Shown here one piece after another: positions 2,721 through 63,339 of a DNA stretch of 64,000 nt. The notes beneath the pieces were generated by a model. The model searched no databases. It was not told the DNA's origin and worked only from the letters and a program-made list of their open reading frames with translations. A program made the position numbers and the translations under genes. Source of the stretch: Saccharopolyspora aridisoli (lineage in GTDB: Bacteria; Actinomycetota; Actinomycetes; Mycobacteriales; Pseudonocardiaceae); assembly GCF_004348445.1 (NCBI RefSeq), contig NZ_SMKV01000002.1, forward strand, positions 186,001 to 250,000, written 5' to 3'. Within the stretch, counting starts at the first letter, position 1, and each line of letters begins with the position of its first letter.

Positions 2721-2744
2721 TGACAGGAAGGTTCCCATGCTCGC
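2721..2744 (+). repeat. Copy of dispersed GGTTCCC motif (intergenic)
   Basis: Best full-length example of the dispersed motif: TGACAGGAAGGTTCCCATGC followed by TCGC. It lies in the short gap between the methyltransferase pseudogene and the 3' end of hutI. It looks like a stop codon, a Shine-Dalgarno sequence and an ATG in a row, but no credible gene follows. Confidence 0.7.
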
Positions 2745-2795
2745 GATCAAGAGGTGTCGAGGCGAGAACCGCGACGCCGACCCACCGAGGTGGCC

Positions 2796-3974
2796 TCATC
2801 GAATGCGGTCGCCTTTGCGCCACACGGCGCGGGTCAGGGGAACACCAGGCCGATACGCCAGCCAAGTCGTGCTCGGCGCGTCCAGCACTTGGAGGTCGGC
2901 CCGGGCGCCCGGGCGCAGCACGCCGACGGCACCGTCCCCGGTTTCGCGTCGCAGCGCACGCGCCCCACCCCAGGTGGCCGCGCGCACAGCTTCGGCCACG
3001 CTCACCCGCATCTGCAGTACCGCGGTCGTCACGCAGAAGGCCATCGACGAGGTGTAGGACGAGCCCGGGTTGCAGTTGCTGGCGAGCGCCACGGTGGCCC
3101 CGGCGTCGAGCAGTGCGCGGGCGTCCGGCAGCGGCTGGCGGGTGGACAGGTCGCAGGCAGGCAGCAAGGTCGCGACGGTGTCAGAAGCTGCGAGCGCGTC
3201 CACGTCCGAAGGCACCAGGTGGGTGCAGTGGTCGACGCTGGCCGCTCCCACCTCGACCGCCAACGTCACTCCCGGCCCGGGCCCGAGCTGATTGCCGTGC
3301 ACCCGCAGTCCCAGGCCGCGCTGGCGGGCAGCCACCAGCACTCGGCGGGACTGGTCGGCGTCGAAGGCCCCCTCCTCGCAGAACACGTCGCACCATCCGA
3401 CGTGATCGGCGACGGCGTCGAGCATGTCCCCGCACACCAGGTCCACGTAGTCGGCCGCGTCGGCTCCGGGCGGGACGAGATGGGCCCCGAGGAAGGTGAC
3501 CTCGTCGGCGACGGTGGCTGCGATCTTCGCTGCGCGCAGCTCGTCCTCGACGGTCAGCCCATAGCCGGTCTTGGTCTCCACGCAGGTCGTGCCCTGAGCT
3601 GCGGCCTCCTCGAGATGACGGCGCAGGTTGCCCGCGAGTTCGGCGTCGGTGGCCTGCCTGGTGGCGTTGACGGTGACCGCGATTCCGCCCGCCTGGTAGG
3701 GCAGGCCGGACATGCGGGCGGCGAACTCGGCGGTGCGATCGCCGGCAAAGACGAGGTGGGTGTGGCTGTCCACCCAGCCGGGCAGGACCGCCCGCCCCTC
3801 GACGTCGACGCGCTCGTCCGCGTCCGGCGCGGATCCGGCGTGACCGACCCAGGCGACCCGGTCGCCGTCGATGACCACTGCCGCGTCGGCGATGGTGCCG
3901 AGCGCGTCGTCATTGGTCGTGAGTTCACCTATCCCAGTGATAACAGTGGATGGCATCGCCGCCCATTTCCTCAC
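2796..3974 (-). CDS. hutI: Imidazolonepropionase
   Basis: A 392-residue metal-dependent amidohydrolase that opens 4-imidazolone-5-propanoate to N-formimidoyl-L-glutamate, the third step of histidine breakdown. The first metal-binding HxH is in [12 protein letters not shown]. Further matches are [19 protein letters not shown] and DHCTHL. The GTG start at 3974 overlaps the hutF stop (GTGA), the same coupled style as the rest of the operon; an ATG at 3956 ([10 protein letters not shown]) is the alternative. It is the last gene of the hut operon. Confidence 0.95.
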
Positions 3975-5260
3975 GCTCGAAGTGCAGTGATGGATTCGCG
4001 CAGTTCACGCGCGGTATCGATGGTGGTGTGGGCTCCACCGGTGACCACGGTCCTGCCATCGGTGATCACCTCGCGAACGTCCTCGGCGCGGGCCACGGCC
4101 GGGACCACCGGCAGCGCGACACCGGCCAAGCGCGGTGTGTCGAGGTCGATCGCGACGAAGTCCGCACGGGCTCCCGCTTCGAGCCGGCCCGCATCGGGAC
4201 GCCCGATGGCGGAGTGCGCTGTGGCCATCGCGAGCAGCTCGTCCGGCCCGTGGTGTCCGCGGGTCTCCGTCGCCAACCGCTGGTAGGACTCCACGGCCTG
4301 CGCCTCGGCGAGGACGTCGATGACCGAGTGCCCGTCGCTGCCCAGTGACAGAGCACTCCCCGCCACTGCCAGAGCCCCGGCAGGACCGATCCCGTCAGCC
4401 AAGTCCGCCTCGGTCGTCGGGCACAGGCACACCCCGGTTCCGCTGCCGCCCAGCAGGCCCACATCCCCGGCTGCGAGGTGCGTGGCGTGCACGGCGGTGA
4501 CGTCCTCACCGAGAGCACCGCGCTCGGCCAGCAGCTGCACCGGGGTTCGACCGTGGGCCGCCAAGCACGCCTCGTTCTCGGCGCGCTGCTCGGACACGTG
4601 CAGGTGCAGGGGAACCTTCCTGTCACACGCCCACCCTGCGACCTCCCCGATCGCCTCGGCCGGCACCGCGCGAACCGAGTGCACAGCAGCCCCCAGGAGC
4701 ACGTCCTGCGCGGTGAAGGACTCCGCGCGTTCGCCCCACCCAGCCGCGTCGCCGTCGGAGAACCGTTGCTGAACCTCGTCGAGTTCACGATCAAAACCGC
4801 CCGCGAGGTAGCAAGTGTCCAGGAGCGTCAACCTGATCCCGGCGTCGTGGGCGGCTTGCGCCAGCGCGTGGCTCATCGCGTTCGGGTCGCGGTAGCGGGA
4901 ACCGCCGGGCGCGTGGTGCAGGTAGTGGAACTCGCCGACACCGGTGATGCCCGCCTGCACCATCTCCGCGTAGACGCCGCGCGCGAGCAGGTAGTAGCTG
5001 TCCGGGTCGAGCTTCGCCGCGACCCGGTACATCTGTTCCCGCCACGTCCAGAACGTGCCGCGTGCGGTGTCACCGCGCAGAGCCCGGTGGAAGGCGTGGG
5101 AGTGCACGTTGGCCAGGCCGGGCAGCACCAGGCCGGGAAGCCTCCGGGCACCACCGGGTGCTTCGGCTTGCCGCACCGCTGTGATCCGCCCGGACTCGAC
5201 CTCGAACAGCACGTCGCGGCACGGGCCTTCGGGCAGCCACGCCCATTCGCACCAGAACAT
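3971..5260 (-). CDS. hutF: Formimidoylglutamate deiminase
   Basis: A 429-residue amidohydrolase that deaminates N-formimidoylglutamate to N-formylglutamate, which marks the five-step version of histidine degradation. Seen: HxH in [30 protein letters not shown] and the metal Asp region [13 protein letters not shown]. The ATG at 5260 follows a GAGGGG ribosome site and lies 4 nt after the stop of the upstream M20 gene; a longer upstream reading frame is only overlap with that gene. A copy of the dispersed motif lies inside the gene and encodes DRKVP just before LHLHVSEQ. Confidence 0.95.
4610..4625 (-). repeat. Dispersed motif copy inside hutF
   Basis: GGGAACCTTCCTGTCA on the + strand. On the hutF coding strand it reads GAC AGG AAG GTT CCC and gives the peptide DRKVP. 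Confidence 0.7.
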
Positions 5261-5264
5261 CCCC

Positions 5265-6449
5265 TCACCCCGCCAAGTCTGCGAGGACGCGGGCGAGGGC
5301 ATGGGAACCTTCCTCGCAGTCCTCGGCGGTCGCGTGTTCTTCGGGGGCGTGGCTGATCCCGGTCGGGTTTCGCACGAACAGCATCGCGGTCGGCTTCTCG
5401 GCTGCGAGCACTCCCGCGTCGTGGCCGGCCCCGGTGGGCAGGACAGGGACATCGTCGAGGACACCGCGCAGTCGGTCGCGCAGCGCCGGGTCGAATTGGA
5501 CGGTGTCGCCGAAGGATTCCTCGACGACCTGCACCTGGCACCCTTCCTGCGCGGCGAATTGCTCCGCCTGCCCGGCCAGGTCGTCGACCATGGATCGCAC
5601 CCCCCTGGGAGCGCGCGCGTCGAGGTGGACGTCCACTGTCGAGGCGATGACGTTGGTGCCGCCCGGGGTGGGGACGAGCCTGCCGACCGTCGCGCGACCT
5701 CCGGGCGTCGCGGCCGCCGTGCGGCGGGCGGCGAGGACGAGGTGCGCTGCGGGGAGCATGGAATCGTTCCGGTCATCGATGAGCGTGGCGCCGGCGTGGT
5801 TTCCCTGACCGCTGAAGCGGAACCGCCACCTGCCGTGTCCGAGGATCGAGTCGGCGACCCCTAGGGGACGATCCAGGTCGATCAGGCCCTTGCCCTGCTC
5901 GACGTGCAGCTCCACGAAGGTTCCGATGCGCGCGAGAGCGGTCTCGTCCCGGCCGATGCGGGCGGGGTCCGCGCCGAAGGAGCGCATCGCTTCGGCGAGG
6001 GTGCCTCCGTCGGCGTCGCGCAGGTTGCGCGCGTGATCCGGGTGGATGGTTCCCGCCATCAGCCGGGACCCGAGGCAGGGCACCCCGAAGCGGCCGCCTT
6101 CCTCTTCGGCGAAGACCACCACGGCCAGCGGTGCGCGCGGCTGAAAACCTCGTTCCCGCAGAATGTCCACCGCTTCGAGCGCGCTGACCACACCGAGGGG
6201 GCCGTCGAAGGCGCCACCGCCGGGCACCGAGTCGAGATGGCTGCCGGTGACGACAGCACCCGGTCCCGGCTCTCCCCACCAGGCCCAGATGTTGGTGTTG
6301 GCATCGGTTTCCACCGCGAACCCGCGGTTCTCGGCCTGCTCGATGAACCATTCGCGCAGGTGCCGCTCGGCGTCGTCGAAGACGTGCCGCGAGTAGCCAC
6401 CGCGCCGCTGATCCGCGCCGATCCCGGCGATGGCGTTGAGCCCGCTCAT
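5265..6449 (-). CDS. M20-family amidohydrolase (allantoate amidohydrolase / N-carbamoylase type) in the hut operon
   Basis: A 394-residue binuclear metallohydrolase. It shows [19 protein letters not shown] (metal His/Asp) and EEEGGRFG (catalytic/metal Glu), plus the dimerisation-domain motif ELHVEQG. The family hydrolyses allantoate, N-carbamoyl amino acids and related ureido or formyl compounds. The ATG at 6449 overlaps the hutU stop (ATGA), and hutF follows 4 nt after the stop. Its place between hutU and hutF, with no HutG-type N-formylglutamate deformylase in the operon, suggests that it removes the formyl group in the last step. That function is inference. Confidence 0.85.
5301..5320 (-). 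repeat. Dispersed motif copy inside the M20 gene
   Basis: ATGGGAACCTTCCTCGCAGT on the + strand. On the coding strand it is read as GAG GAA GGT TCC CAT GCC (EEGSHA), a different reading frame from the hutF and hutU copies. Confidence 0.65.
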
Positions 6450-8092
6450 CGGCTCACCAGCGGTGTCCGCACGCCGCGCTCGGCAGCAATCTCTTCGGCA
6501 CGTTCGTAACCGGCGTCGACGTGCCGGATCACCCCCATGCCCGGGTCGTTGGTGAGCACCCGCTGGAGCTTCTGCGCGGCGAGCTCGGTGCCGTCGGCGA
6601 CCGTGACCTGACCAGCGTGCAGGGAACGTCCCATGCCGACGCCGCCACCGTGGTGCAGCGACACCCAAGTCGCGCCAGATGCGGTGTTGACCAGGGCGTT
6701 GAGCAGCGGCCAGTCGGCGACCGCGTCGGAGGAGTCCGCCATCGCCTCGGTCTCGCGGTAGGGAGAGGCGACCGATCCGCAGTCGAGGTGATCGCGGCCG
6801 AGGACCACGGGTGCGGCGAGCTCGCCGGAGGCGACCATCTCGTTGAACCGCAGGCCCGCGGCAGCGCGCTCGCCGTAACCGAGCCAGCAGATCCGGGCGG
6901 GAAGGCCGTGGAAGGGAACCTTCCTGTCAGCCAACCGGAGCCATCGGGCGAGGTGCTCGTCGTCTCCGAAGAGCTCCAGCACGGCCTTGTCGGTCTTGGC
7001 GATGTCGGCGGGGTCACCGGACAGCGCCGCCCAGCGGAAGGGTCCTCTTCCTTCGCAGAACAGCGGGCGGATGTAGGCGGGGACGAAGCCCGGGTAGGCG
7101 AACGCCCGGTCGTATCCGGCGAGCTGGGCTTCGCCGCGCAACGAGTTGCCGTAGTCGAAGACCTCGGCGCCTGCGTCGAGGAATCCCACCATCGCCTCGA
7201 CTTGCTGGGCCATCGAATCCCGTGCGCGGGTGGTGAACTCGTCGGGTTTGCGGGCCGCGTAATCGCCCCAGTCGGAAAGGTCCACGTCCAGCGGGAGGTA
7301 CGACAGCGGGTCGTGCGCCGAGGTCTGGTCGGTGACGATGTCCGCCGGCACTCCGCGTCGCAGCATCTCGGGGAGCAGCTGCGCCGCGTTGCCGATGACG
7401 GCCACCGAGTAGGCGCGCCGGTCACGCTTGGCTGCGACGGCCTTGTCGATGGCTTCGTCGAGGGAGTCGGCGACCTCGTCGAGGTAGCCCTGGCGGGCGC
7501 GGCGGTGGGCGCGTTCCGGGGCGCATTCCACGACCAGCGCGACACCTTCGTTCATGGTGACCGCCAGCGGCTGCGCTCCACCCATGCCGCCGAGTCCCGC
7601 GGTGATGGTGAGCGTTCCGGCAAGCGTTCCGCCGAAGCGCTTGGTCGCGATGGCCCCGAACGTCTCATAGGTGCCTTGAAGGATCCCTTGTGTTCCGATG
7701 TAGATCCAAGATCCGGCCGTCATCTGGCCGTACATCATCAGGCCGAGTTCGTCGAGGCGCCGGAACTCCGACCAGTTCGCCCAGTCGCCGACGAGGTTGG
7801 AGTTGGCGATGAGCACGCGCGGCGCCCACTCGTGGGTTCGCAGCACGCCGACGGGTTTGCCGGACTGCACGAGCAGCGTCTCGTCCTGGCCGAGCGTGGT
7901 CAGTTCGCGCACGATCGCCTGGTAGCAGGCCCAGTTCCGGGCGGCCTTGCCGGTTCCGCCGTAGACGACGAGGTCTTGCGGGCGTTCGGCGACGTCGGGG
8001 TCGAGGTTGTTCTGCAGCATCCGCAGCGGTGCCTCGGTGCTCCAGCTGCGGGCGGTCAGCGTCGTGCCGCGTGGGGCGCGCACGTCGGTCAT
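6446..8092 (-). CDS. hutU: Urocanate hydratase
   Basis: 548 residues, the normal length for urocanase. It adds water to urocanate to give 4-imidazolone-5-propanoate, using tightly bound NAD+ as an electrophile. Family signatures are plain: [13 protein letters not shown] in the NAD-binding part, [30 protein letters not shown] and [21 protein letters not shown] overlaps with hutH upstream and the M20 gene downstream indicate a coupled operon. A copy of the dispersed motif gives [13 protein letters not shown] near residue 390. Confidence 0.97.
6914..6929 (-). repeat. Dispersed motif copy inside hutU
   Basis: GGGAACCTTCCTGTCA on the + strand, identical over 16 bp to the hutF copy and in the same frame, so both unrelated enzymes carry DRKVP. 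Confidence 0.7.
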
Positions 8093-9624: not shown

Positions 9625-9650
9625 GTCCCCATCTCAGCTCGCGGAAGCCC

Positions 9651-9692
9651 CTGGCAGAAGCCCTGATGGAGGGACTTCGTCTGGGATGCCAG
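9651..9692. promoter_or_regulatory. Nested palindromic operator between hutH and the IclR gene
   Basis: The 77-bp divergent gap contains outer arms CTGGCA/TGCCAG (9651-9656 and 9687-9692). Inside them is a second dyad: AGAAGCCCT, five bases, then AGGGACTTCGTCT. A symmetric site here could control both hutH and the regulator. IclR family members bind such dyads, so it is the obvious operator candidate. Confidence 0.6.
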
Positions 9693-9701
9693 ACTTTGGG
9701 C

Positions 9702-10484: not shown

Positions 10485-10511
10485 CCGGCCGCCGCTGGGG
10501 AGGCCGGTCAA
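10481..10511. terminator. Bidirectional hairpin between the IclR gene and the transporter operon
   Basis: Arms TTGACCGGCC (10481-10490) and GGCCGGTCAA (10502-10511) form a perfect 10-bp stem with an 11-nt loop. It overlaps the IclR stop codon and lies just before the stop of the convergent binding-protein gene. Confidence 0.7.
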
Positions 10512-10516
10512 GGCGG

Positions 10517-12710: not shown

Positions 12711-13789
12711 GTCGCCGCCCGGTGCTCATCCAGCAACGACAGCACCTCGTCGGCCGTGACGACGCCGACCGCGCCACCGTCGGCGTTGACGACGACGCCC
12801 AGACCGGACGGCGCGGACAGAGCGGCGTCCAGAGCGCCACGGAGGTTCCCGTGCTCCACGTGGAGCGAACCGCCGGCCACGAGGGTGTGCTCTGCGAGGT
12901 CGCCGTCGGAGTCGGTGCCCGGGGGCAGCCAGCCGCGTGGACGGTCACCTTCATCGACCGCCAGCCGCCACTGGTCGGTGGAGGGGACCCTTTCTCCCAA
13001 CCGGACCGTCGGGACGGGTTTCGGACGCAGGCGCGCGGAGTCCACGAAGGACAGCCGGCGGTAACCGCGGTCGCGGCCGACGAAGGACGTCACGAAGTCG
13101 TCGGCGGGTGAGGACAGCAAGTCGTCGGGCGGCGCGCACTGGGCGAGGTGACCGCCTTGGCGCAGGACGGCGACCTTCTCGCCGAGCTTGATGGCCTCGT
13201 CGATGTCGTGGGTGACGAACAGGACGGTCTTGTCCAGCTCGTCCTGCAGGCGCAGCAACTCGTCCTGGAGGCCTTCGCGGACGACCGGGTCGACGGCGCT
13301 GAAGGGCTCGTCCATCAGCAGCACGGGCGGGTCAGCGGCCAGCGCTCGCGCCACTCCGACTCGTTGCTGCTGACCGCCGGAGAGCTGCGCCGGGTACCGC
13401 TTGCCCAGGTCCGCGGGAAGGCCGACGAGGTCCAGGAGCTCGCTGGAGTGCTCGCGCGCGGCGCGGCGGGTCTTCCCGGCCAGCATCGGGACGGTGGCGA
13501 TGTTGTCCAGCACGGTTCGGTGCGGGAACAGTCCTGCCTGCTGGATGACGTAGCCGATGCCGCGGCGCAGCTGCGCCGGGTCGCGGTCGCGCACGTCGGT
13601 GCCGTCGACGGAGACGGTGCCCGAGGAGGGGTCGATCATGCGGTTGACCATCCGCATGAGGGTGGTCTTGCCGCAGCCGGAAGGCCCCACCAGCACGGTG
13701 ATCGTCCCCGTCTCGACGGACAGGCTGAGCTCCTCCACGGCGACGGTGCCGTTCGGGTACTGCTTGCGGACGGACTGGAACTCGATCAA
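12707..13789 (-). CDS. Osmoprotectant ABC transporter ATP-binding protein with CBS region
   Basis: 360 residues from TTG 13789 (LIEFQSVRKQYPNG), preceded by a strong GAGAGGGGG ribosome site; the longer open frame upstream is not needed. Walker A GPSGCGKTT, signature LSGGQQQRVGVARAL and Walker B VLLMDEPFSAVDP are intact. After about residue 240 the sequence resembles paired CBS modules (VGVVTADEVLSLLDEH at the end), which in OpuA-type ATPases sense ionic strength or nucleotides. First gene of the operon. Confidence 0.92.
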   Translation of the reverse strand: MIEFQSVRKQYPNGTVAVEELSLSVETGTITVLVGPSGCGKTTLMRMVNRMIDPSSGTVSVDGTDVRDRDPAQLRRGIGYVIQQAGLFPHRTVLDNIATVPMLAGKTRRAAREHSSELLDLVGLPADLGKRYPAQLSGGQQQRVGVARALAADPPVLLMDEPFSAVDPVVREGLQDELLRLQDELDKTVLFVTHDIDEAIKLGEKVAVLRQGGHLAQCAPPDDLLSSPADDFVTSFVGRDRGYRRLSFVDSARLRPKPVPTVRLGERVPSTDQWRLAVDEGDRPRGWLPPGTDSDGDLAEHTLVAGGSLHVEHGNLRGALDAALSAPSGLGVVVNADGGAVGVVTADEVLSLLDEHRAAT

Positions 13790-19849: not shown

Positions 19850-20335
19850 GGCGTCCCTCCTATTGCCATGCCTGCGGCCCGAGCACTATCGAGCCGGGCG
19901 GATGCGACCTCGAGCGGTCGCTGTCAACGCCGGCTTCCCGGGCGTACCGGTGAAGAAGACGTCTATCGAAATACCGATACCGGCCATCCTGTTCGGACAA
20001 CGGCTCGGCGGACGCTGCGGTGCGTTTAGTGTGCCAGCCCTTTGAAGCAATGTCAGCGACAGGGATCACAAGCCTCACCAGCAAAAAGGCGAGATTTTTA
20101 CGAATTGGGACAGTACGCGCGTCATATTTTTCGACCACGAGATGCAGTACGGCCGTCCTGTTTGCATTTCGCAGTTGTGCGGTACAAGTGTCCGGTATTG
20201 CCATCTGAATCGAAACTGTTTGGAAAATGCGAGTGCCCACCTCTGGTTTTCCGCGATGCGATCGAACACGGGAACCTTCTTGTCACCACCGCCCCACCGA
20301 ACCGGCCCCGGTCACACCTCCTAGGCTCGGCACTC
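19850..20335. other. Low-GC intergenic stretch with one dispersed-motif copy
   Basis: 486 bp without a convincing gene. From about 20041 to 20265 the composition is visibly AT-richer than everything else in the window (for example GCGAGATTTTTACG and GTCATATTTTTCG). Open frames here have non-actinomycete codon use and no recognisable domain. It probably includes promoters for malic enzyme and the epimerase. It may be a remnant of transferred DNA. Confidence 0.5.
20270..20285 (-). repeat. Dispersed motif copy upstream of the epimerase
   Basis: GGGAACCTTCTTGTCA, one mismatch from the consensus, 50 bp before the RmlC-like start. Confidence 0.65.
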
Positions 20336-20947: not shown

Positions 20948-21000
20948 GGACGGGAACCTTCCTGTCACGCCCGACGGAATGGCACAGAGGTTCCCATCCT
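20948..21000. terminator. Inverted pair of dispersed motifs between convergent genes
   Basis: TGAGGACGGGAACCTTCCTG starts near 20946. After a short loop, CAGAGGTTCCCATCCTCA follows and ends at about 21002. The two copies face each other and would fold into a long hairpin right between the converging epimerase and sodX genes, where it could end transcription from both sides. Confidence 0.65.
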
Positions 21001-21884: not shown

Positions 21885-22030
21885 TGACAGAGAGGTTCCC
21901 ATGCTCGCGTCGACGCGAACTGCGCGAACGGTTCCCACGCCCACCACCGCAGTGCGCGAACGGTTCCCACCGTCACTGCCGTGGTGCGCGAAAGGTTCCC
22001 ATGCTCACACCGCAGTGCGGGTAGGTCCCC
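21885..22030 (+). repeat. Tandem array of the dispersed GGTTCCC motif
   Basis: A full copy TGACAGAGAGGTTCCCATGC at 21885 is followed by three head-to-tail units of 32, 32 and 31 bp (21923, 21955, 21987). Each starts CGCGAA(C/A)GGTTCCCA and ends in GTG. A decayed copy (GTAGGTCCCC) closes the array at 22030. It is not a CRISPR: the units are near-identical across most of their length and no spacer pattern exists. Confidence 0.8.
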
Positions 22031-27741: not shown

Positions 27742-27957
27742 TCACTCGACGACAGCGATCAGATCGCCCTCTGCAACGACGTCACCCGGCTTGACCGCCA
27801 TGGTGCTGATCTTGCCGGAAACCTCGCTGAGCACCGGGATCTCCATCTTCATGGACTCCAGGAGCACCAGCGAGTCACCGTCGTGGACCGCGTCGCCCTC
27901 GGACATCGACACCGCCATGACGTTGGCCACCACCTCGGCGCGGATCTCCTCGGCCAT
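27742..27957 (-). CDS. Biotinyl/lipoyl carrier protein, TB7.3-like
   Basis: 71 residues, a single biotinyl domain with the biotin-attachment lysine in LLESMKMEIPVLSE. A stand-alone biotin carrier of this size corresponds to mycobacterial TB7.3 (Rv3221c), which is also next to pdtaS. It lies 40 bp upstream of pdtaS on the same strand, so co-transcription is likely. Its carboxylase partner is unknown. Confidence 0.92.
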   Translation of the reverse strand: MAEEIRAEVVANVMAVSMSEGDAVHDGDSLVLLESMKMEIPVLSEVSGKISTMAVKPGDVVAEGDLIAVVE

Positions 27958-28141
27958 CTCTTCCTCCTAGTCGCGGCCGACTTCGGCCCCTGCTTAGGAA
28001 ACCACGACCGCCACCACCCACCGACGGCAGGTTCCGGACATGGCAGACTGGAACCTCGAAATCCCAGCGGAGACCGGGTGTCAGTTGATCACTCGCGGTC
28101 ACCGGGCTGGAGCGGAACTCGAACTTCGAGGGAGTCGCCTT

Positions 28142-28216
28142 ATGGGCAAGCGCGCGCGCAAGAAGAAGGACCGGCGCAAGAACAAGGCCAACCACGGCAA
28201 GCGCCCCAACTCGTGA
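28142..28216 (+). CDS. Ribosomal protein bL37
   Basis: A 24-residue, highly basic protein starting MGKRARKKKDRRKNKANHG and ending KRPNS. It matches the tiny actinobacterial large-subunit protein bL37 first seen in mycobacterial ribosome structures, especially its NKANHGKRPN end. ATG 28142 is preceded by GAGGGAG and the gene is followed at once by a strong hairpin. It is easily missed because of its size. Confidence 0.88.
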   Translation: MGKRARKKKDRRKNKANHGKRPNS

Positions 28217-28244
28217 TCGCAGCGGCAACCGCCGCACCCGAGAA

Positions 28245-28282
28245 GCGAAGGGCCCCGGACCACACGGTCCGGGGCCCTTCGC
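28245..28282. terminator. Strong hairpin between bL37 and secA
   Basis: Perfect 17-bp arms GCGAAGGGCCCCGGACC (28245-28261) and complement (28266-28282) around ACAC. It sits between convergent genes, so it can serve both. Confidence 0.88.
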
Positions 28283-28294
28283 GTGAACGGCTCG

Positions 28295-31174
<2,880 letters not shown>

Positions 31175-46876: not shown

Positions 46877-46883
46877 CGGCGCT

Positions 46884-48507: not shown

Positions 48508-48611
48508 GCTGCATCCTCCCCGGTTCCCAACCAACGTGGTTGGCAGCCTACCGGCGATCGGCATGTCGTTGGCAGCATCCGGTTTGACCAGAGCTGTTCG
48601 TCACGATCTGT

Positions 48612-53430: not shown

Positions 53431-53496
53431 GTCCACTGACCGGGAACGCCCGGGTTCACAGACCTCGCCGGGGGTGGGCGTGCGAGGATCGGTGGT

Positions 53497-56362: not shown

Positions 56363-56505
56363 CTCCGCTTCGAACGCTCGCGAGGCCAGGTCGAGTCACT
56401 GCCGCTCCGCTTCGCGGCCCGGTGAGCGACTCCCCTGCCCCTTCGGGCACGTTGCGATCGTCAGAACAGCCAGGACTTCACCGCAGTGGCATGTTGCAGT
56501 CACGG

Positions 56506-57414
56506 CTAGAACGCCCGGTAATCGCGCACCGGGAAGCGGGGGGCGTAGCGGGGGCGGTTGACGCCTGCCGCGGCGAGGTAGCGGACGGCCCTGTGGCGGT
56601 GGCCTTCGTAGGGGCTGAGCACGCGGAGCATTCCCTCGTCGTCGAGGGGCCGGCCGACCAGGGCGGTGCCGACGATCGTGGGCAGGTGGAAGTCGCCGAC
56701 GCTGACCGCGTCGGGGTCGCCCCAGGCGCGCTGCGCGACCTCGGCCGCCGTCCAGGGTCCGATGCCGGGGATCTTCTGCAGGAGGTTCCGGCCCGGCTCA
56801 CCGCGGAGGACCACGGCCTTCTCCAGGCTGCGCGCCGATGAGGCCGCGGCGAGCAGGGTGCGGCGACGGGCTCCGTCGATGCCCGCGCGATGCCACTCCC
56901 AATCCCGGATCTCGCGGACCTGCCGCGGATCGGGCACCGTCCACAGCTCCTCCACCGGCCCGGGGGCGGGGTGGCCGAAGCGGCGGCACAGCTCCCGCCA
57001 CGAGCGCCACGCCTCCCGGTTGGTGACCTTCTGCTCCAGGATCGCGGCGACGAGGACGTCCCACACCCTTCCTGACGAGCACAGCCGCATCCCCGAGGCC
57101 GCCCGCACGCCTCGGGTGACGACGTCGTGGGCAGGTGAGAACCCGCTGTCGTCGTCGGAGGCGCCCAGCAGGTCGGGGACTCCCTCCAGCACCGCTTCGG
57201 CTCCCGGGCCCCACGCGGATGCGCGGATGGTTCCCTTGCTCGCACGACGCAGCCGCAGCGTCGCGGGGCCGTCGGCGGTGGTGCTGGCCCACCACAGCTC
57301 GCCCGGCTCGACTCGGGTCGTCGGGTCACCGCTGCCGCGCCGCAGCGGCGACAGGACGCGGACCAGGTCCAGCGGGTAGTCGTGGTGCCAGTCACGGGTG
57401 AGGGGTTCGTTCAT
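56506..57414 (-). CDS. HhH-GPD DNA glycosylase, AlkA-like
   Basis: 302 residues from ATG 57414. Helix-hairpin-helix LQKIPGIGPWTAAEVAQRAWGD with the catalytic Asp in SVGDFHLPT. The N-terminal half matches AlkA-type N-domain folds only loosely. Base-excision repair of alkylated purines is expected. The ATG is 3 nt after the stop of the upstream manC gene, so it is co-transcribed. Contains a diverged dispersed-motif copy (GGATGGTTCCCTTGCTCGC, 57225-57243). Confidence 0.88.
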   Translation of the reverse strand: MNEPLTRDWHHDYPLDLVRVLSPLRRGSGDPTTRVEPGELWWASTTADGPATLRLRRASKGTIRASAWGPGAEAVLEGVPDLLGASDDDSGFSPAHDVVTRGVRAASGMRLCSSGRVWDVLVAAILEQKVTNREAWRSWRELCRRFGHPAPGPVEELWTVPDPRQVREIRDWEWHRAGIDGARRRTLLAAASSARSLEKAVVLRGEPGRNLLQKIPGIGPWTAAEVAQRAWGDPDAVSVGDFHLPTIVGTALVGRPLDDEGMLRVLSPYEGHRHRAVRYLAAAGVNRPRYAPRFPVRDYRAF

Positions 57415-57419
57415 ATCGC

Positions 57420-58520
57420 TCAATCCGCCGAGAACCGTACTCCGTTCGGCGGGAGCTCGACGCCCGGCCAGACCCGGATCCCGGCCAGCAGCTCGCAGTC
57501 GGCACCGACCGTCGCGCCGTCACCGATCACCACGTCGCGCAGCACGGCCCCGGCGCCCACCCGAGCACCGGCTCCCACCACGCAGCGCTCCACGACCGCG
57601 CCGTCCTCGACCACCACGCCCTCGAAGAGCACCGAGGCGCTGACGTGGGCATGGGAACCTACCTCGCAGTTCTCCCCCACGGTGCTTCCCGCGTCGACGA
57701 CCGCGTCCTCGGCGACCTCCGCGCCGGCGAGCACCAGCGCCTGCCCGGTCGGGCCGGGCAGCGCGTCGGACGGGGCGTTGCCCAGGACGAGGTCCGCGCT
57801 GCCGCGCACGAACGCGGCAGGGGTTCCCATGTCCAGCCAGTACGACGCATCGACGTAGCCCTGCACACGGGCTCCCGAGGCGAGCAGTTCGGGGAAGGTC
57901 TCGCGCTCGACCGACACCGGTCTGCCGGTGGGGATGCCTTCGATCACCTCTCTTCGGAAGACGTAGCAACCCGCGTTGATCTGGTCGACCGGCGGGTTCT
58001 CGGTCTTCTCCAGGAAGTCGGTGACCCGCCCGTCGGCGTTGGTGGGCACGCAGCCGAAGCGGCGCGGATCGTCGACCTTCACCAGGTGCAGGGTGACGTC
58101 GGCGGCCGTGTCGCGGTGCGTGTCGAGCAGCTCGGCGAGGTCGACGCCGGAGAGGATGTCGCCGTTGAACACCAGCACGTCGTCGGCGGTCAGCCGGTCG
58201 GCGACGTTGCGGATCGCGCCCGCGGTGTCCAGCGGCTCGGACTCCACCACGTACTCGACGTGCAGGCCGAGGTCGGAGCCATCACCGAAGTGCTCCTCGA
58301 AGACCTCCGCCTTGTAGGACGTGCCGAGGACCACGTGCTCGATGCCGATCGCGCGGATCCGGGACAGCAGGTGGCGCAGGAACGGCACCCCGGCGGTCGG
58401 CAACATCGGCTTCGGTGCGGACAAGGTCAAAGGCCGGAGCCGGACCCCCCGACCGCCCACCAGCACGACCGCTTCCGCCTTCGGACGCGGTTCGGCCGGG
58501 GTCTGCGCATCCGCGGACAT
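57420..58520 (-). CDS. Mannose-1-phosphate guanylyltransferase / NDP-sugar pyrophosphorylase
   Basis: 366 residues. Nucleotidyltransferase N-domain with LVGGRGVRLRPLT, KPMLP and VFNGDILSGVD, then a left-handed beta-helix (about 260-360: GSTVGENCEVGSHAHVS; GAGARVGAGAVLRDVVIGDGA). Equivalent to mycobacterial ManC (Rv3264c), making GDP-mannose from the product of manB. ATG 58520 follows GGAGGACG. Confidence 0.92.
   Translation of the reverse strand: MSADAQTPAEPRPKAEAVVLVGGRGVRLRPLTLSAPKPMLPTAGVPFLRHLLSRIRAIGIEHVVLGTSYKAEVFEEHFGDGSDLGLHVEYVVESEPLDTAGAIRNVADRLTADDVLVFNGDILSGVDLAELLDTHRDTAADVTLHLVKVDDPRRFGCVPTNADGRVTDFLEKTENPPVDQINAGCYVFRREVIEGIPTGRPVSVERETFPELLASGARVQGYVDASYWLDMGTPAAFVRGSADLVLGNAPSDALPGPTGQALVLAGAEVAEDAVVDAGSTVGENCEVGSHAHVSASVLFEGVVVEDGAVVERCVVGAGARVGAGAVLRDVVIGDGATVGADCELLAGIRVWPGVELPPNGVRFSAD
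57651..57670 (-). repeat. Dispersed motif copy inside the manC-like gene
   Basis: ATGGGAACCTACCTCGCAGT, one base from the copy in the M20 gene (5301-5320). The coding strand gives EVGSHA, in the same frame as the M20 copy's EEGSHA. Confidence 0.6.
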
Positions 58521-58704
58521 CGGCGTCGTCCTCCTCTACCTGACCTAGATCAATGACGAAAACCCATTGGGGGGAATACTCTGGCAGTGGCAACGGCATA
58601 ATGACACTGGGCCCGTGCCCGATGGCCGTGCCCGGTTCAACGCCACACCTGGTTCGTTGCCAGGTTCGGCACCACCGACTGCGAACGACTGAGAGGGCAT
58701 CCAC

Positions 58705-59073
58705 ATGGACCCGCGCCTCCGAGCCGACGAAGCACTTGCTCGCGCGCGGGCACGCGGCGCGTTCGTCGTCACACCGGACAACGCCACGTCACCGATGGAC
58801 GCGGCGAACACCGTGCGGATTCCGCGCGACATCGTCAACAGCGCGGGCGCCGACACCGACACGAACATGCTGCCCGCCGCAGGTCAGCAGATGCAGGCGC
58901 AGCAGCAACCGCAGTTCCCGACCGTCGACCCGCACACCGGGTGGCCGACCGAGGACTACGGGCAGCCGCAGCACGGCATGCCGCCCAACCCGTACCAGTC
59001 GCAGCGCGGCCCGAACGAGTTCGGACCGCTCGGGTCGTCGCAGCCGACGCAGCAGTACCCGCAGCAGTACTAG
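58705..59073 (+). CDS. Conserved Gln/Pro-rich hypothetical protein
   Basis: 122 residues from ATG 58705 with GAGAGGG upstream. A folded-looking N-terminus (MDPRLRADEALARARARGAF; FVVTPDNATSPMDAANTVRI) is followed by a disordered tail rich in Gln, Pro and Gly (QPTQQYPQQY at the end). I do not recognise it beyond similarity to unnamed proteins at this locus in Pseudonocardiaceae. It converges on wbbL with 4 bp between stops. Confidence 0.75.
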   Translation: MDPRLRADEALARARARGAFVVTPDNATSPMDAANTVRIPRDIVNSAGADTDTNMLPAAGQQMQAQQQPQFPTVDPHTGWPTEDYGQPQHGMPPNPYQSQRGPNEFGPLGSSQPTQQYPQQY

Positions 59074-59077
59074 ACGA

Positions 59078-59938
59078 TCAGCGCGCCTGGATCTTGGCGC
59101 GCGCGGTCAGGCCGAGCTTCAGCGCGAGGCGCAGCGGCGCCCACTTCAGGCCCTGGTACCGGTCGGCGAGGTAGCGGTAGGCGGAGCGGTGGTGCTCGGT
59201 GAGCATCCTCTTGGACACCTGCGAGGTCGAGGCGCCACCGATGTGCATGATCTCTGCGCTCGGCACGTAGACGTTGAGCCAGCCGGCCTTGCCCAGCCGG
59301 TCGCCGAGGTCGACGTCCTCGAAGTACATGAAGTAGCGCGGGTCGAACCCGTCGATGGAGTCGAACGCCTCGCGCCGCATCAGCAAGCAAGATCCCGACA
59401 GCCATCCGGCGGTGCGTTCACCACTCCTGGAGTCCGACTGGCGGTAAGCGCGCGACCAGGGGTTCCCCGGCCAGACCTTGACGAACAGCGCGTGCCCGAC
59501 ACCGCGCCCGATCGACGGCAGCAGCCGTGCGGAGGGGTAGACCTGCCCGGTGGGCTCGGTGATCAGCGGGCCGAAAGCGCCACCGCGCGGCCAGCGCCCG
59601 GCCGCCGCGATCAGCTCGTCGAGGGACCCCGCGCCCCACTCCAGGTCGGGATTTGCGATGACCACCCAGCCGTACTCCGGACCGAGCGCGGCGACTCCGC
59701 GGTTGGCTCCCCCGCCGTATCCGAGGTTGCCGCCGGTCGGCACGAAGTCGACGTTCGCGTGCTGCTGCGCTGCCTGCTGCGGTGCGCCGTCCTTCGAACC
59801 GTTGTCGGCGAGGATCACGCGGACCGGGCGCTCGGTGGCCTTGTCCAGGGTGTCGATGAAGCGCTGCAACGTTTCGCCGGGCGAGTAGGTCACGGTGACG
59901 ACGGCGAGTTCGTCGCCGTAGGTGCGCGCGTTGGTCAC
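59078..59938 (-). CDS. wbbL: WbbL-like rhamnosyltransferase (GT2)
   Basis: 286 residues from GTG. GT-A fold: ADNGSKDG, GGNLGYGGGANRG, ANPDLEWG and YFMYFEDVDLGDR. The order wbbL next to manC (Rv3265c-Rv3264c) matches mycobacteria, where WbbL adds L-rhamnose to GlcNAc-PP-decaprenol in arabinogalactan linkage. Here a small gene intervenes and rmlD is not adjacent. Confidence 0.88.
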   Translation of the reverse strand: MTNARTYGDELAVVTVTYSPGETLQRFIDTLDKATERPVRVILADNGSKDGAPQQAAQQHANVDFVPTGGNLGYGGGANRGVAALGPEYGWVVIANPDLEWGAGSLDELIAAAGRWPRGGAFGPLITEPTGQVYPSARLLPSIGRGVGHALFVKVWPGNPWSRAYRQSDSRSGERTAGWLSGSCLLMRREAFDSIDGFDPRYFMYFEDVDLGDRLGKAGWLNVYVPSAEIMHIGGASTSQVSKRMLTEHHRSAYRYLADRYQGLKWAPLRLALKLGLTARAKIQAR

Positions 59939-59974
59939 GTCGTCACATTCTGCTGCAACGCGGTCGCCAACGGA

Positions 59975-61123
59975 TCAGCGGGTGCTGGCGTGGTGGGCGC
60001 GCGCGTACGCCTCGCGGTGCTGGGTCGCGCAGGCGCCCCAGGTGAACTCCTTGGCCCGCAGTTGCGCGGCAGCGACCAGGGCCGAGCGGCGAGCCGGGTC
60101 GTCGAGGAGTTCGCGCAGGCCGGCGGCGATGTCGGTGGGCCGGACGCCGCAGTAGGCGACTGCGTCACCGCCGACCTCCGGCAGGCTCAGCCTGCGGGTG
60201 GTCAGCACCGGTGCCCCGCAGGCCATCGCCTCCAGGACCGGCAGGCCGAAGCCCTCACCGAGGCTCGGGTAGGCGACCAACCGCGCGCCGCCGAGGAATC
60301 CGGCGAGCTCGCCGAACGGCAAGTACCCGGCCCTGATCACCCGGATCCGATGCGGCACCGATTCCAGCGCCCGCTCGACCTTGGTGTCCCACCCGGGCTG
60401 CCCGGCGAGCACCAGCGCGGGAGCCTCGTCGCGGCGTCCCTGGCAGGCCTGCGTGAAGGCCCGGATGAGCGCGGGAACGTTCTTGCGCGGTTCGAGGGCA
60501 CCGAGGAACGCGACGTAGGGCTGGTCGAAGAGGTTCAAGCGGTCGCGCACGACCTCGACCTCCTCGGGCGTCGGCGGGTGGAACCGGTCCGGGTCGACGC
60601 CGTGGTAGCTCACCGCCATGCGGTTGCGGTCCGCCCCGACGGTGCGCGCCAGCTCTGTCGCGGTGGCCTGGCTGGGCACCACGCAGACCTCGGCGCGGCG
60701 CAGCGCGGCTCTCGTCCACGCTCGGAAGAAGCGGGCCTTGACCGGCGAGTGCACGCGGCGGTTGGTGAAGAACGTGGCGTCGTGCAGGGTCACCACCGAC
60801 GCGGCGGGGTTGGCCAGCGGCGTCGTGTAGTGCGGCGAGTGCAGCACGTCGACACCGAGCTTGTTGACCAGCACCGGCAGCGTCGTCTGCTCCCACGTCA
60901 ACCGCGCCGTCCGGGTCGCGACCGCCTCGGCGGCCGGGATGGTCCTCGAGTTCGGCGCGAGGGTCGCGTAGAGCGCGGCGTCGCGCGGCTGGCACACCAC
61001 GGTGACCCGCGCGCCGTCCGCATCCAGGGCGGCGAGCAGGGAATCGACGTACCGTCCGACGCCGCCTCGGTCCGCGGGGACCGCGGTGGCGTCGATCAGG
61101 ATGTGCGGTTCACCTCTGTGCAC
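59975..61123 (-). CDS. GT4-family glycosyltransferase
   Basis: 382 residues from GTG 61123 (VHRGEPHILIDATAVPADRGGVGRY, start read in part); no clear ribosome site. The GT-B donor-site motif YPSLGEGFGLPVLEAMACG is present near residue 280. Typical of mannosyl- or other hexosyltransferases. Paired in tandem with the next GT4 gene. Confidence 0.9.
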   Translation of the reverse strand: MHRGEPHILIDATAVPADRGGVGRYVDSLLAALDADGARVTVVCQPRDAALYATLAPNSRTIPAAEAVATRTARLTWEQTTLPVLVNKLGVDVLHSPHYTTPLANPAASVVTLHDATFFTNRRVHSPVKARFFRAWTRAALRRAEVCVVPSQATATELARTVGADRNRMAVSYHGVDPDRFHPPTPEEVEVVRDRLNLFDQPYVAFLGALEPRKNVPALIRAFTQACQGRRDEAPALVLAGQPGWDTKVERALESVPHRIRVIRAGYLPFGELAGFLGGARLVAYPSLGEGFGLPVLEAMACGAPVLTTRRLSLPEVGGDAVAYCGVRPTDIAAGLRELLDDPARRSALVAAAQLRAKEFTWGACATQHREAYARAHHASTR

Positions 61124-61201
61124 CAGAAAAGAGTACGGCGAAGGTTCACGGCTTCGTGCCAAGTACGTGAAAAACGTGGGAGCGAGGGCCAACCGCTGTG
61201 A

Positions 61202-61270
61202 GCGAGGGAACCTCTCGGTCACCGTTCCCCGGCTCGCGAGCGTCGGTCCGGGCGTGAGGAGGGGAACCTT
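61202..61270 (-). repeat. Two dispersed-motif copies between the GT4 genes
   Basis: GCGAGGGAACCTCTCGGTCA at 61202-61221, then GGGGAACCTTTCAGCCACCG at 61261-61280, the second running into the GT4 stop region. Between them CCGTTCCCCGGCTCGCG (61222-61240) is partly complementary to the first copy, so a hairpin is possible. Confidence 0.6.
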
Positions 61271-62362
61271 TCAGCCACCGACGAGGTCGCGGTGCAGTTC
61301 CCAGATGTCGAGGGCTGCTCGTTCCCAGGTGAACTCGGCCGCCCTGCGCCGCCCGGCTGCGGCGAGGTCCGCCCTGAGCTGCGGGTCGTCGGCGATGCGG
61401 CGCAGCGCGGCCGCCATCGCGCACGGGTCGGCTCGGGGAACTTCCACCCCCGCACCGCCGGCGACCTCCGACAGGGCTGGGGCGTCGGAGTGGACGACCG
61501 GGAGGCCGAGCGCCATCGCTTCGACCAGCGGCAGGCCGAAGCCCTCGGCGAGGCTCGGCGCGACCAGGGCCGTGGCGCCGCGCAGCAGCGAGGAGAGCTC
61601 GGCGTCGGTGATGTCGGTGAGCACCCGCAGGCGGCGATACCCGGCGTCGGCCGCGAGCTCGGGCAGGTCGAGGTCTCCCCAGCCGGGGCGGCCGACGATC
61701 AGCAGAGGGATGTCGGGAGCGTTCGGTTCGGCGAGAGCCCTGATGAGGTGCTGGTAGCCCTTGCGCGGCTCGATGGTGCCGATCGCCAGCAGGTACTCCG
61801 CCGGCGGATCGAGACGGGTGGCGGGTGCCGGTTCGGCCAGCAGAGCGGGGGACACCCCCTCAGCGACCACCTGTGGCTCCGAGGTGAGCGGAACTCGACC
61901 CGCCAGATCTTGCGCGATCGCGCGGGTGGGCACCACCAGGGCGTCCGCGTGACCGGTGGCTCTGGTGATCATGCGCCGGTGCCAGGCGACTCCGCGCGGG
62001 GTGAGGGTTTCCGGGTGGGTCCAGGCGACGGTGTCGTGCACGGTGACGACCAGGCCGCGCCCGCGTCGGCGGGGCGGGGCGAGCGGCGTCATCGCGTGCA
62101 CGGTGTCGCCGCCCGGCCAGAGCGGCAGACCGCGCTCCCACGCGGCGATCAGCGCACGTCGCGGCAGCGGCAGCACGCGGGGTCCCGCGACGCCGGGGAC
62201 GCGGGCCTCCTCGGGGTCGCCGGTGCGGCTGATCGCGCTGGTCACCGTCCAGCCGTCGGGTGTGGTGGCGGCGAGAGCGCGCAGCAGTTCCCGGGTGTAG
62301 CGGCCGGTGCCGCCGGGGACCGGGGCCAGCAGCTGCTCGGCGATGGCAACCAGCTCGGGCAC
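61271..62362 (-). CDS. GT4-family glycosyltransferase
   Basis: 363 residues from GTG 62362 (VPELVAIAEQLLAPVPGGTGRY). N-terminal GT-B domain with VVTVHDTVAWTHPE, then YLLAIGTIEPRKG and APSLAEGFGLPLVEAMALG. Close in type to its neighbour at 59975-61123, probably an ancient duplication. The acceptor is unknown. Confidence 0.9.
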   Translation of the reverse strand: MPELVAIAEQLLAPVPGGTGRYTRELLRALAATTPDGWTVTSAISRTGDPEEARVPGVAGPRVLPLPRRALIAAWERGLPLWPGGDTVHAMTPLAPPRRRGRGLVVTVHDTVAWTHPETLTPRGVAWHRRMITRATGHADALVVPTRAIAQDLAGRVPLTSEPQVVAEGVSPALLAEPAPATRLDPPAEYLLAIGTIEPRKGYQHLIRALAEPNAPDIPLLIVGRPGWGDLDLPELAADAGYRRLRVLTDITDAELSSLLRGATALVAPSLAEGFGLPLVEAMALGLPVVHSDAPALSEVAGGAGVEVPRADPCAMAAALRRIADDPQLRADLAAAGRRRAAEFTWERAALDIWELHRDLVGG

Positions 62363-62418
62363 GCGCTCAGCTTCGCACGCGCTGGGAACCCGCCGATGCG
62401 TGACGCTAGGTTTCCCCG

Positions 62419-63339
62419 GTGACATCAGAACGGGTGCGCACCACGGTCATCGTGATCACGTGGCGCGGCCGCGCCCACATCGACGCCTGCCTGGAGGCAT
62501 TGGCCGCCCAGTCGCGCGCGCACCGGACGCTGGTGGTGGACAACGCCTCCGATGACGGCACTGCCGAACTGCTCGCCGCCCATCCCGAGGTCGAGGTGCT
62601 GCGGCTGTCTCGCAACGTCGGCTACGCGGGTGGCCTGGCCGCCGCACTGCCTGAGGTGAACACGCCCTTCGTCGCCTGGCTCAACGACGACGCCGCCCCG
62701 TCCGCGACCTGGCTGGAGGTGGTGGAGGGGAACCTTCCTCCCACCGCGACCGCGGCGGCGGCCACATCGGTGCTGCTGTCGCCGGAGGGTGGTGTGCAGT
62801 CGACGGGGGTGCGGCTGACTGCTGACGGGCACGGCGCGGACGCGACCGCCACCGACGCGGTCTTCGGGTTCTGCGGTGGGGCGGCGTTGCTGCGCACTGA
62901 CGTGCTGCGCGAGGTCGGAGGGGTTCCGGCCGAGTTCTTCTGCTACTACGAGGACACCGACACCGCGTGGCGGCTGCGGCTGGCGGGTTTCGACGTGGTG
63001 GGCACGGAGGCGACCGCCGCGCACCTGCACGGGGCCAGCACCCGGCCCGGTTCGGCCCTGTTCCACCGCTGGAACGAGAGGAACCGTCTGCTCACCCTCC
63101 TGCGCTGCGCGCCCGCCGGGGTGGCGGTCCGCGAGCTGGCGAGGTTCGCGGCCATCACGCTGCTCCTGCCGTGGCGCGATGTGCCCCATCGCCCGCCGAA
63201 CCTGCGGTCCGGTCTGCGGCTGCGGGTGTTGGTGGAGGTCTCCTCCCTGCTGCCCGCGACGCTGCGCGCCCGACGTCGGATCGGCCGGATGGCGCGGGTT
63301 TCGCGCCGCGAGGTGTGGGAGACCTGGGCGGGTCGGTGA
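62419..63339 (+). CDS. GT2-family glycosyltransferase, rhamnosyltransferase-like
   Basis: 306 residues from GTG 62419. GT-A motifs VDNASDDGTAELLA, SRNVGYAGGLA, AWLNDDAAPS and CYYEDTDTAWRL. Resembles WbbL-type enzymes. Divergent from the GT4 gene and just upstream of the polyketide synthase on the same strand. An in-frame dispersed-motif copy encodes EGNLPP in the middle. Confidence 0.9.
   Translation: MTSERVRTTVIVITWRGRAHIDACLEALAAQSRAHRTLVVDNASDDGTAELLAAHPEVEVLRLSRNVGYAGGLAAALPEVNTPFVAWLNDDAAPSATWLEVVEGNLPPTATAAAATSVLLSPEGGVQSTGVRLTADGHGADATATDAVFGFCGGAALLRTDVLREVGGVPAEFFCYYEDTDTAWRLRLAGFDVVGTEATAAHLHGASTRPGSALFHRWNERNRLLTLLRCAPAGVAVRELARFAAITLLLPWRDVPHRPPNLRSGLRLRVLVEVSSLLPATLRARRRIGRMARVSRREVWETWAGR
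62727..62743 (+). repeat. Dispersed motif copy inside the GT2 gene
   Basis: GGGGAACCTTCCTCCCA. Here the opposite strand of the motif is the coding strand and gives GNLPP, a third frame relative to the other coding copies. Confidence 0.6.

Follow-up and report, generated by a model that had tools for sequence, protein, structure and literature searches.

What does it mean when a short DNA word recurs far above chance, between genes as well as inside them, in one stretch of an actinomycete chromosome? The question is raised by a window of 64,000 nucleotides from Saccharopolyspora aridisoli, which comprises positions 186001-250000 of the 282,869-bp contig C23 in a genome (G000) of 83 contigs and 6.0 Mb. 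The 9-mer GGGAACCTT occurs in this 64-kb window in nine exact copies on the two strands where 0.16 would be expected, and nine or more were reached in 0 of 100 shuffles; a first-pass annotation of the window had already pointed to this excess and had proposed that the repeat is either an invasive palindromic-type element or the site of a DNA-binding protein. As described below for those genomes of Saccharopolyspora and close relatives whose completeness allows a judgment, the palindromic site, present in dozens of copies, is mostly intergenic and located almost only within ~200 kb of the chromosome. The ends of this stretch adjoin the same genes in each of three genera, and the pattern has the appearance of a hitherto undescribed system by which a chromosome domain is marked or folded. 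The second of the two guesses is in our judgment the better one; the first-pass annotation overlooked the regional restriction of the motif, the fuller dyad to which it belongs and its patchy presence among close relatives.

Confinement of the Motif to One Chromosome Segment

A whole-genome search of G000 placed all 11 of 11 exact copies of the 16-mer GGGAACCTTCCTGTCA on C23. Up to two mismatches yield 61 copies, of which 52 are on C23, five on C34, two on C62 and one each on C20 and C45, and up to three mismatches yield 122, as compared to 20 when the pattern is reversed. A weight matrix trained on C23, whose scores in bits therefore favour that contig, detects 78 sites of at least 18 bits in C23 and two in 287 kb of other G000 contigs. 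Because all of the exact copies fell on C23, contamination by a foreign contig was considered; it is ruled out by the same confinement in other genomes of the genus.

The layout was judged in five closed or nearly closed relatives (G001, G006, G008, G017 and G105), together with the listed matches of G368. The exact copies lie at 3.857-4.114 Mb of an 8.126 Mb contig in G001 (58 of 58), at 7.594-7.825 of 9.44 Mb in G006 (59 of 59) and at 1.590-1.780 of 5.78 Mb in G008 (65 of 65). With up to one mismatch G001 has 119 copies, and the 100 among them that were listed are all between 3.857 and 4.131 Mb. The string GGGAACNTTNCTGTCA is similarly distributed, with 36 of 36 copies at 5.478-5.681 of 6.56 Mb in G017, 43 of 44 at 3.836-4.002 of 4.83 Mb in G105 (the remaining one at 4.712) and 75 copies in G368, where all of the matches listed fall at 5.293 to 5.444 Mb. 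The segment measures 166-257 kb in the five relatives, and the sites are confined to one defined region of the chromosome, in the manner by which a macrodomain would be recognized. The earlier description of the motif as dispersed is accurate inside the window, but genome-wide the copies are confined mainly to one region. When the segment was searched without use of the motif, its most intergenic-enriched 10-mers turned out to be pieces of the motif, whose top scores range from 58 to 154 in G001, G008, G105, G368 and G017.

Position and Ends of the Segment

The ends of the segment were mapped by anchoring proteins of C23 in the relatives. The low end adjoins rhodanese-like and cysteine-dioxygenase-like genes (names assigned by eye; C23 40.05-40.98 kb) that are common to G000, G001, G008, G017, G105 and G368, although they are rearranged there in G368. 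The high end is the 3' end of ybaK (so named from a family search in G105), beside sigR and rsrA (read by eye), in G017, G105, G368, G008 and G001; one further array lies past ybaK, at aroA, in G001 and G008. The same end genes are found in G001, G008, G017, G368 and G105, which represent three genera, and G000 shares the low end. The spread of an invasive element throughout the genome, one of the two earlier proposals, does not agree with this confinement to a single segment with conserved end genes.

In G000 the sigR-rsrA-ybaK-aroA genes were encountered neither at their usual place on C23 nor in the searched parts of C34, C62 and C20, and the high end of this genome is therefore not comparable. 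Positions 1-27957 of the window are assigned to the site-bearing domain, which begins at ~40.98 kb on C23 and whose high end is placed here from the relatives. Window positions 27957-28295 (C23 213957-214295) correspond to the point where the ~18 kb sigR-rsrA-ybaK-aroA stretch sits in G017, G105 and G368; in G000 this stretch may be elsewhere or lost.

The gene dnaA is located at 2.706 Mb in G001, 0.695 Mb in G008 and 6.497 Mb in G006 (minus strand in each), and at the contig start on the plus strand in G017 and, as read by eye, in G105. In all five of these genomes (chromosomes of 4.8-9.4 Mb) the segment lies 0.8-1.4 Mb from dnaA on its upstream side, a position that rules out an origin or terminus domain. 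The genes carried by the domain include those for ATP synthase, rho, kgd and other housekeeping functions (read by eye).

Anatomy of the Site

The unit is an imperfect 25 bp dyad, about TGnnAGsAwGG-GAA-CCTTYCTGYCA, as would be expected for the target of a dimer, and the outer left half is most complete in G105. Across Saccharopolyspora, conservation spans approximately -5 to +18 and falls to background outside these limits, with a conserved core and near-random flanks. Units occur in arrays of 1-7 copies or in 46 bp palindromes, two arrangements that have one core in common. In G001, where 78 sites (up to two mismatches) lie within 80 kb, the arrays are spaced near 31, 37, 41 and 53 bp. Many units of G105, G368 and G017 are placed head to head across 4 bp to form the 46 bp palindrome, and G368 has in addition direct arrays at 29 bp. 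These composites number 29 in G105, 22 in G017, 19 in G368, 4 in G006, 2 each in G001 and G008, and 0 in G000. The two arms of the 78 composites agree with each other at 0.878 of positions, as compared to 0.816 for random re-pairing of arms (0.831 at most in 500) and 0.851 for re-pairing within genomes (0.870 at most in 1000).

Direct spacings concentrate at 31, 41-42 and 53 bp (n=111 after removal of 18 repeated spacers). For a period of 10.5 bp, R is 0.34 (null mean 0.08), which none of 4000 smoothed resamples attained, and every period between 10 and 11 passes this test of helical spacing. The median distance from array to array is 2.7-3.8 kb in five genomes.

Placement Relative to Genes and Replication

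A simple GC-frame gene caller of our own, applied to the fetched stretches with two mismatches allowed in the motif, placed inside predicted genes 4 of 99 copies in G001, 2 of 68 in G006, 8 of 91 in G008, 2 of 62 in G017, 0 of 92 in G368, 0 of 48 in G105 and, within the domain, 4 of 48 in G000. Convergent gaps hold more sites per kb of intergenic DNA than divergent ones in G001 (9.5 vs. 2.3), G008 (8.7 vs. 1.25), G006 (2.1 vs. 0.33), G017 (2.0 vs. 0.41) and G000 (1.95 vs. 0.87); the excess is small in G368 (2.2 vs. 1.7) and there is none in G105 (0.74 vs. 1.09). The median distance to gene 3' ends is 39-118 bp. Orientation relative to the genes is balanced in G008 (21/21) and C23 (13/13), and in G001 the 47 sites of co-directional gaps are oriented with the genes in 36 cases and against them in 11. 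The check for strand and replication bias that had been proposed for the motif revealed no consistent direction relative to replication, since arrays oriented with and against it number 15/14, 11/12, 16/28, 13/26, 10/3, 7/12 and 11/7 in the seven genomes. Arrays of G001 and G008 occupy common gaps in 12 of 12 cases over 38 gaps (p 4e-10), and G000 and G008 have 18 gaps in common where 6.8 are expected over 119, both comparisons being uncorrected for gap length.

Dyad sites that recur in many intergenic gaps of the core, so near to gene 3' ends and (in G001) pointing mostly with the genes, might be operators or silencers of a regional transcription regulator that damps or insulates transcription across the segment, a role for which phage stoperators offer a comparison. 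We consider this rather improbable, because the preference for convergent over divergent gaps in five of the seven genomes (all but G368 and G105) is unlike the placement of promoter operators, neither G008 nor C23 has a preferred direction relative to the genes, and the domain includes housekeeping genes such as those listed above.

The same proximity to gene 3' ends might indicate elements that act at the level of RNA, as bidirectional terminators or as hairpins of 3' untranslated regions, and some of the sequences could fold accordingly: the folding energy is -42.7 kcal/mol for a composite and -13.4 for the unit in its GAGGAAGG form, with a z score of -3.07 for the latter. The commonest Saccharopolyspora unit nevertheless has a z score of 0.28 and folds no better than its shuffles, and T-runs within 16 nt downstream were seen at 0 of 512 sites in the seven genomes (4 of 512 on the other side), two results by which intrinsic terminators are ruled out. 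Some gaps of G008 also hold what appears by eye to be a separate terminator hairpin beside the sites, no Rfam family was detected in the window at gathering scores, and confinement to one region would be odd for such elements; an RNA-level explanation is in our opinion highly improbable.

Copies in the Window

Up to three mismatches, the 16-mer has 11 copies in the window where 0.30 would be expected. Its four exact copies start at 2721 (2721-2736, minus strand, intergenic, with the left flank GAGCAT), at 4610 (4610-4625, plus) inside hutF, at 6914 (6914-6929, plus) inside hutU, and at 20952 (20952-20967, plus), where the copy is intergenic and forms an inverted pair with a partner of four mismatches and 25.8 bits at 20980-20995 on the minus strand; this partner had been placed near 20985. 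Another intergenic site, with one mismatch, is at 20270-20285 (plus). The copies that had been given as 21885-22030 constitute a minus-strand array whose first member, identified by motif search and matrix, is at 21885-21900 (two mismatches), followed by two degenerate members (GGGAACCGTTCGCGCA) at 21921-21936 and 21953-21968 and a member with the exact 9-mer at 21985-22000 (27.7 bits). The gene of an M20/allantoate amidohydrolase contains a plus-strand site with two mismatches at 5303-5318 and a weak degenerate copy with four at 5760-5775 (plus, 18.3 bits). Two other weak degenerate copies, both in one gene at 12835-12850 (minus, 18.1 bits) and 12984-12999 (plus, 20.1 bits), may be there by chance.

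Past the domain end seen in the relatives, window positions 57220-62743 hold degenerate copies of which some are within sugar-nucleotide and glycosyltransferase-like genes. They consist of an intragenic copy at 57220-57235 (minus, 22.3 bits), a copy with three mismatches inside the gene for mannose-1-phosphate guanylyltransferase at 57653-57668 (plus, 17.8 bits), a site with three mismatches at 61206-61221 (plus, 27.0 bits), a nearby site with the exact 9-mer at 61262-61277 (plus, 28.9 bits), and a site with two mismatches inside a glycosyltransferase-like gene at 62728-62743 (plus, 32.4 bits). Elsewhere in G000, satellite groups occupy C34 12.9-24.9 kb (L024-L025) and C62 3.97-4.03 kb (L026); those off C23 include a four-copy array at C34 18,347-18,473 and a group between cofC-like and ppk-like genes.

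The positions reported at first were right to within a few bases, and 5303, 57653, 61206, 61262 and 62728 are corrected starts that replace 5301, 57651, 61202, 61261 and 62727. The residues claimed for the coding copies are also those found on translation: CDRKVP in HutF, ADRKVP in HutU, CEEGSH in the M20 protein, CEVGSH in the guanylyltransferase (ManC) and GNLPP in the glycosyltransferase-like protein. NCBIfam confirms the first four of these proteins, and the glycosyltransferase-like gene has NCBIfam matches below the cut-off only.

In HutU, the ADRKVP of the window is replaced by AGEKVS or AGEKVP in four of four relatives compared. The DRKVP of HutF is limited to the window species and the loci of S. 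endophytica, S. ipomoeae and S. dendranthemae, and CEEGSH of the M20 gene to the window species and S. dendranthemae, as compared to CDAGAH, CTAGAH and others. By these alignments the motif residues of HutU, HutF and the M20 protein are derived, rather than ancestral residues conserved in all homologues. Their derivation in the lineage of the window, together with a near-invariant core amid variable flanks and spacers, upholds the suggestion that selection or spread has acted at the level of DNA. Non-derived matches also occur in coding DNA, as at the degenerate copies at C23 178184 (LGTFVA, in an ABC gene) and 161929 (LTAGFP), whose residues are widely shared; no relatives of ManC or the glycosyltransferase were among the stretches compared for the alignment of coding copies. 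The proposed reading of the motif as a cassette of stop codon, ribosome site and start codon finds no support, since an ATG requires C-A-T directly before the core, and only 65% of the G001 copies have the C and only 47% of the G006 copies the T, with intergenic copies in both orientations.

Distribution, Absence and Possible Decay

With up to one mismatch, 20 of 22 genomes of the genus have 30-128 copies, and the other two, G013 and G015, a single copy apiece; the reversed motif gave 0 in 22 of 22. Among 390 genomes of the family, any match is found in 45, at least 30 copies in 25, and 1-2 copies in the remaining 20. The 25 motif-rich genomes consist of the 20 of the genus, G105, and G368-G371, which are four of the six members of a third genus. 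If the segment had been imported in an ancestor from a lineage that carries the motif genome-wide, its sharp and shared ends would be accounted for. We find such an import very hard to credit, given that so few of the family genomes are rich in the motif, that the copies in those 25 are regional wherever the layout was judged, and that cores are exact over deep divergence, so that something must maintain them.

When the ABC protein encoded next to kgd was used as a query, 80 named loci were obtained, each of 24 kb or less. The motif (up to two mismatches) is present in five of these, with 21 copies in S. indica, 16 in S. rosea, 11 in S. ipomoeae, 10 in S. endophytica and 9 in S. dendranthemae, and was not found in that stretch in the other 75, including S. 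oryzae and Halosaccharopolyspora lacisalsi. It is also absent from G372, which we take to be the chromosome of S. erythraea NRRL 2338. In a tree of 23 domain proteins, the motif-poor G013 is the sister of G008 and G366/G367 the sister of G368 (support 100 for each), and the placements of G015 (70) and G372 (60) are weak. From these placements it follows that there were at least two losses, and possibly four, unless the motif was gained repeatedly with the same ends.

The gaps of G013 that carry sites in G008 are often shortened, and four of them that were scored include one with a copy of 23.7 bits, one with a visibly decayed copy and two that are empty. Four diverged copies are present in G015, as two head-to-head pairs separated by 20 bp, and G372 has one weak copy. 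Averaged over gaps and measured against shuffles, the gaps of G372 that bear the motif in the relative score slightly better than the others (0.35 and 0.22 vs. 0.54 and 0.51). Some remnants suggest, on thin evidence from these sequences, decay after loss of the system. A replacement motif at the same place in the motif-poor genomes was rejected, as nothing comparable appeared in the fetched syntenic stretches of G367, G366, G372 and G013, where 10-mer scores are at most ~7; G015 (8.5) yielded weak diverged copies, its 10-mer AAGGGAACTT being motif-like. G107 scores ~12 from weak unrelated repeats, much as in its own control stretch; its short intergenic repeats (L111-L116), for example CGAAAGCCAC near the atp locus and CGTGAGTGGT in the control stretch, have no relation to the motif. 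A phage origin of the motif was likewise set aside; the exact 16-mer occurs once in each of four IMG/VR contigs (L241-L244), and one composite pattern that was searched had no match in IMG/VR.

A Putative Chromosome Domain and Its Alternatives

Taken together, the confinement of the copies, the conserved ends of the segment, the dyad form of the unit and its helical spacing suggest that the motif is bound by a trans-acting protein dedicated to one region. We therefore favour, with a probability of roughly 0.55 and mainly on the strength of confinement and shared ends, the interpretation that the motif is the recognition site of a putative sequence-specific DNA-binding protein that marks one chromosome domain. 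A putative dimeric protein would recognize the ~25 bp dyad, which occurs either in small arrays whose members often share one face of the helix or paired head to head in a 46 bp palindrome, with an array about every 3 kb across the ~200 kb segment 0.8-1.4 Mb upstream of dnaA. By covering and bridging the arrays, the protein might give the segment a folding, mobility or cell position of its own and possibly influence its segregation, for example by pinning the segment or by directing SMC complexes, on the model of MatP and matS in E. coli, and the sites would decay where the protein is lost.

Several observations weigh against this interpretation. The low end is blurred in G001 and G008 by a small extra cluster 12-14 kb beyond it, which adjoins an RNase H-like gene (~C23 28.6 kb). 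G000 is looser than its relatives, with 13 of the 78 matrix hits on C23 inside genes and with satellites outside the domain on C34, C62 and C23 at 243-262 kb. One composite palindrome of G105 lies ~0.7 Mb outside the domain (L237, C1:4711759-4711794), between PhoX-type phosphatase-like and short-chain dehydrogenase-like genes and with no evident DNA-binding gene beside it. A smaller spacing peak at 37 bp is off the helical period, and the matching of composite arms can be explained by template switching at quasi-palindromes. Measured against shuffles, gaps that bear the motif in the relative score on average no better than other gaps in G013 (0.39 vs. 0.38) and G015 (0.40 vs. 0.33), and 13 gaps of G367 gave no remnant. 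A candidate for the binder also failed to emerge: no gene of the domain tracks the presence of the motif when C23 is compared with the stretches of G001, G006, G008, G105, G367, G372 and G107, and each of 13 genomes, whether or not it bears the motif, has a single ParB above the TIGR00180 cut-off. Lastly, the dispensability of the motif would also suit a selfish element.

A regionally confined repeat is indeed the main rival, possible though on balance unlikely. A palindromic repeat of the repetitive extragenic palindromic (REP) or miniature inverted-repeat transposable element (MITE) type might have multiplied locally in an ancestor, through tandem duplication, gene conversion or a transposase with local hopping, with insertions in genes removed so that intergenic ones survived, and with decay once the enzyme was lost. 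Such a history would fit the mostly intergenic placement, the scarcity in divergent (promoter) gaps of five of the seven genomes, the differences in copy number between species at shared gaps, the 18 repeated spacers, the patchy presence among genomes, the strong hairpins of the composites and the satellites of G000. It is harder to reconcile with a single segment, bounded in three genera by the same genes, that contains all or almost all of the copies, as REP and MITE sequences scatter genome-wide, with spacer lengths that follow the helix, and with direct arrays and head-to-head pairs built on one core; in addition, no transposase was noticed by eye among the predicted genes of the domain, in which no search for transposase families was run.

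More tentatively than the recognition site as such, we suggest that this might be the first site-specific chromosome-domain system of Actinobacteria, occupying an off-centre ~200 kb of one arm, with ends at the same genes across three genera and predicted dimer sites, and lost more than once, for example in S. erythraea. If so, bacteria can set apart an ordinary, gene-rich and off-centre stretch of the chromosome. Region-confined sites with gene-precise ends in actinomycetes, present in one sister species and absent from another, provide a ready comparison of the same genes with and without sites, by which the role of an off-centre domain becomes directly testable. Our searches of the literature (on Saccharopolyspora repeats, Hi-C and macrodomains, MatP in actinobacteria, and region-specific motifs) returned no description of such a system; the 15- and 16-base motif strings had no match there, and an 11-base piece occurs only in eight papers that by title deal with human, animal, fly or viral sequences. 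The apparent lack of the motif in S. erythraea, a model species (G372, by our identification), may explain why it was not described earlier, and a paper on S. erythraea transcriptional regions does not use the word "motif" (PMC3610266).

Comparison with Known Systems

The comparisons of gene content around kgd, which cover a small part of each genome, yielded no candidate binder gene in the 10 of 80 named loci compared. Weaker second matches to TIGR00180 were obtained in G001, G006, G368 and the motif-free G367, and a Noc/ParB paralogue as the binder is ruled out at the sensitivity of that family. ParB/parS and Noc with its binding sites (NBS) are systems in which dimers bind palindromic sites of regional distribution. 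The present motif is like them in palindromic form and regional distribution, and unlike them in its sequence, its longer dyad and its location off the origin, with only one ParB per genome over cut-off. The FtsK-orienting polar sequences (KOPS) and SpoIIIE recognition sequences (SRS) are short, G-rich and polar, with a meaning on the scale of the chromosome; the arrays described here, in contrast, have no consistent direction and are confined to one segment, and polarity of the KOPS kind is ruled out by their mixed orientation along the replichore. REP sequences, the bacterial interspersed mosaic elements (BIME) that they form, and MITE repeats are short intergenic palindromes in pairs or arrays, scattered genome-wide; the motif is likewise short, mostly intergenic and set in pairs and arrays, but no such scatter was observed in G000 and the relatives tested.

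MatP/matS is the nearest model for the working of the motif; MatP and MaoP are region-specific organizers of the chromosome described from E. coli and its relatives (PMC3330122, PMC5023128). The motif is like maoS of the E. coli Ori macrodomain in being site-specific to a defined chromosome region, and unlike it in that maoS is a single site in the origin region and the sites here are many and far from the origin (PMC5023128). MatP itself was sought with PF06303, which gave no match over cut-off in 13 genomes and weak matches in two of them (E 0.5 and 0.75); as a control, the same family matched four of 14 named genomes including E. coli, one of them over cut-off. The matS site is 13 bp long and is present in 23 copies in the 800 kb of the Ter macrodomain (PMC3330122). 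Many short sites within one chromosome region, and the model of a mechanism, are features that the motif has in common with MatP/matS; a ~25 bp site, dozens of copies in ~200 kb, arrays, and a location on one arm rather than at the terminus set it apart (PMC3330122). Membership in the MatP/matS system is ruled out by the lack of a MatP match over cut-off, the length of the site and the non-terminus region, and the resemblance to matS would thus be one of working, by analogy, and not of kinship.

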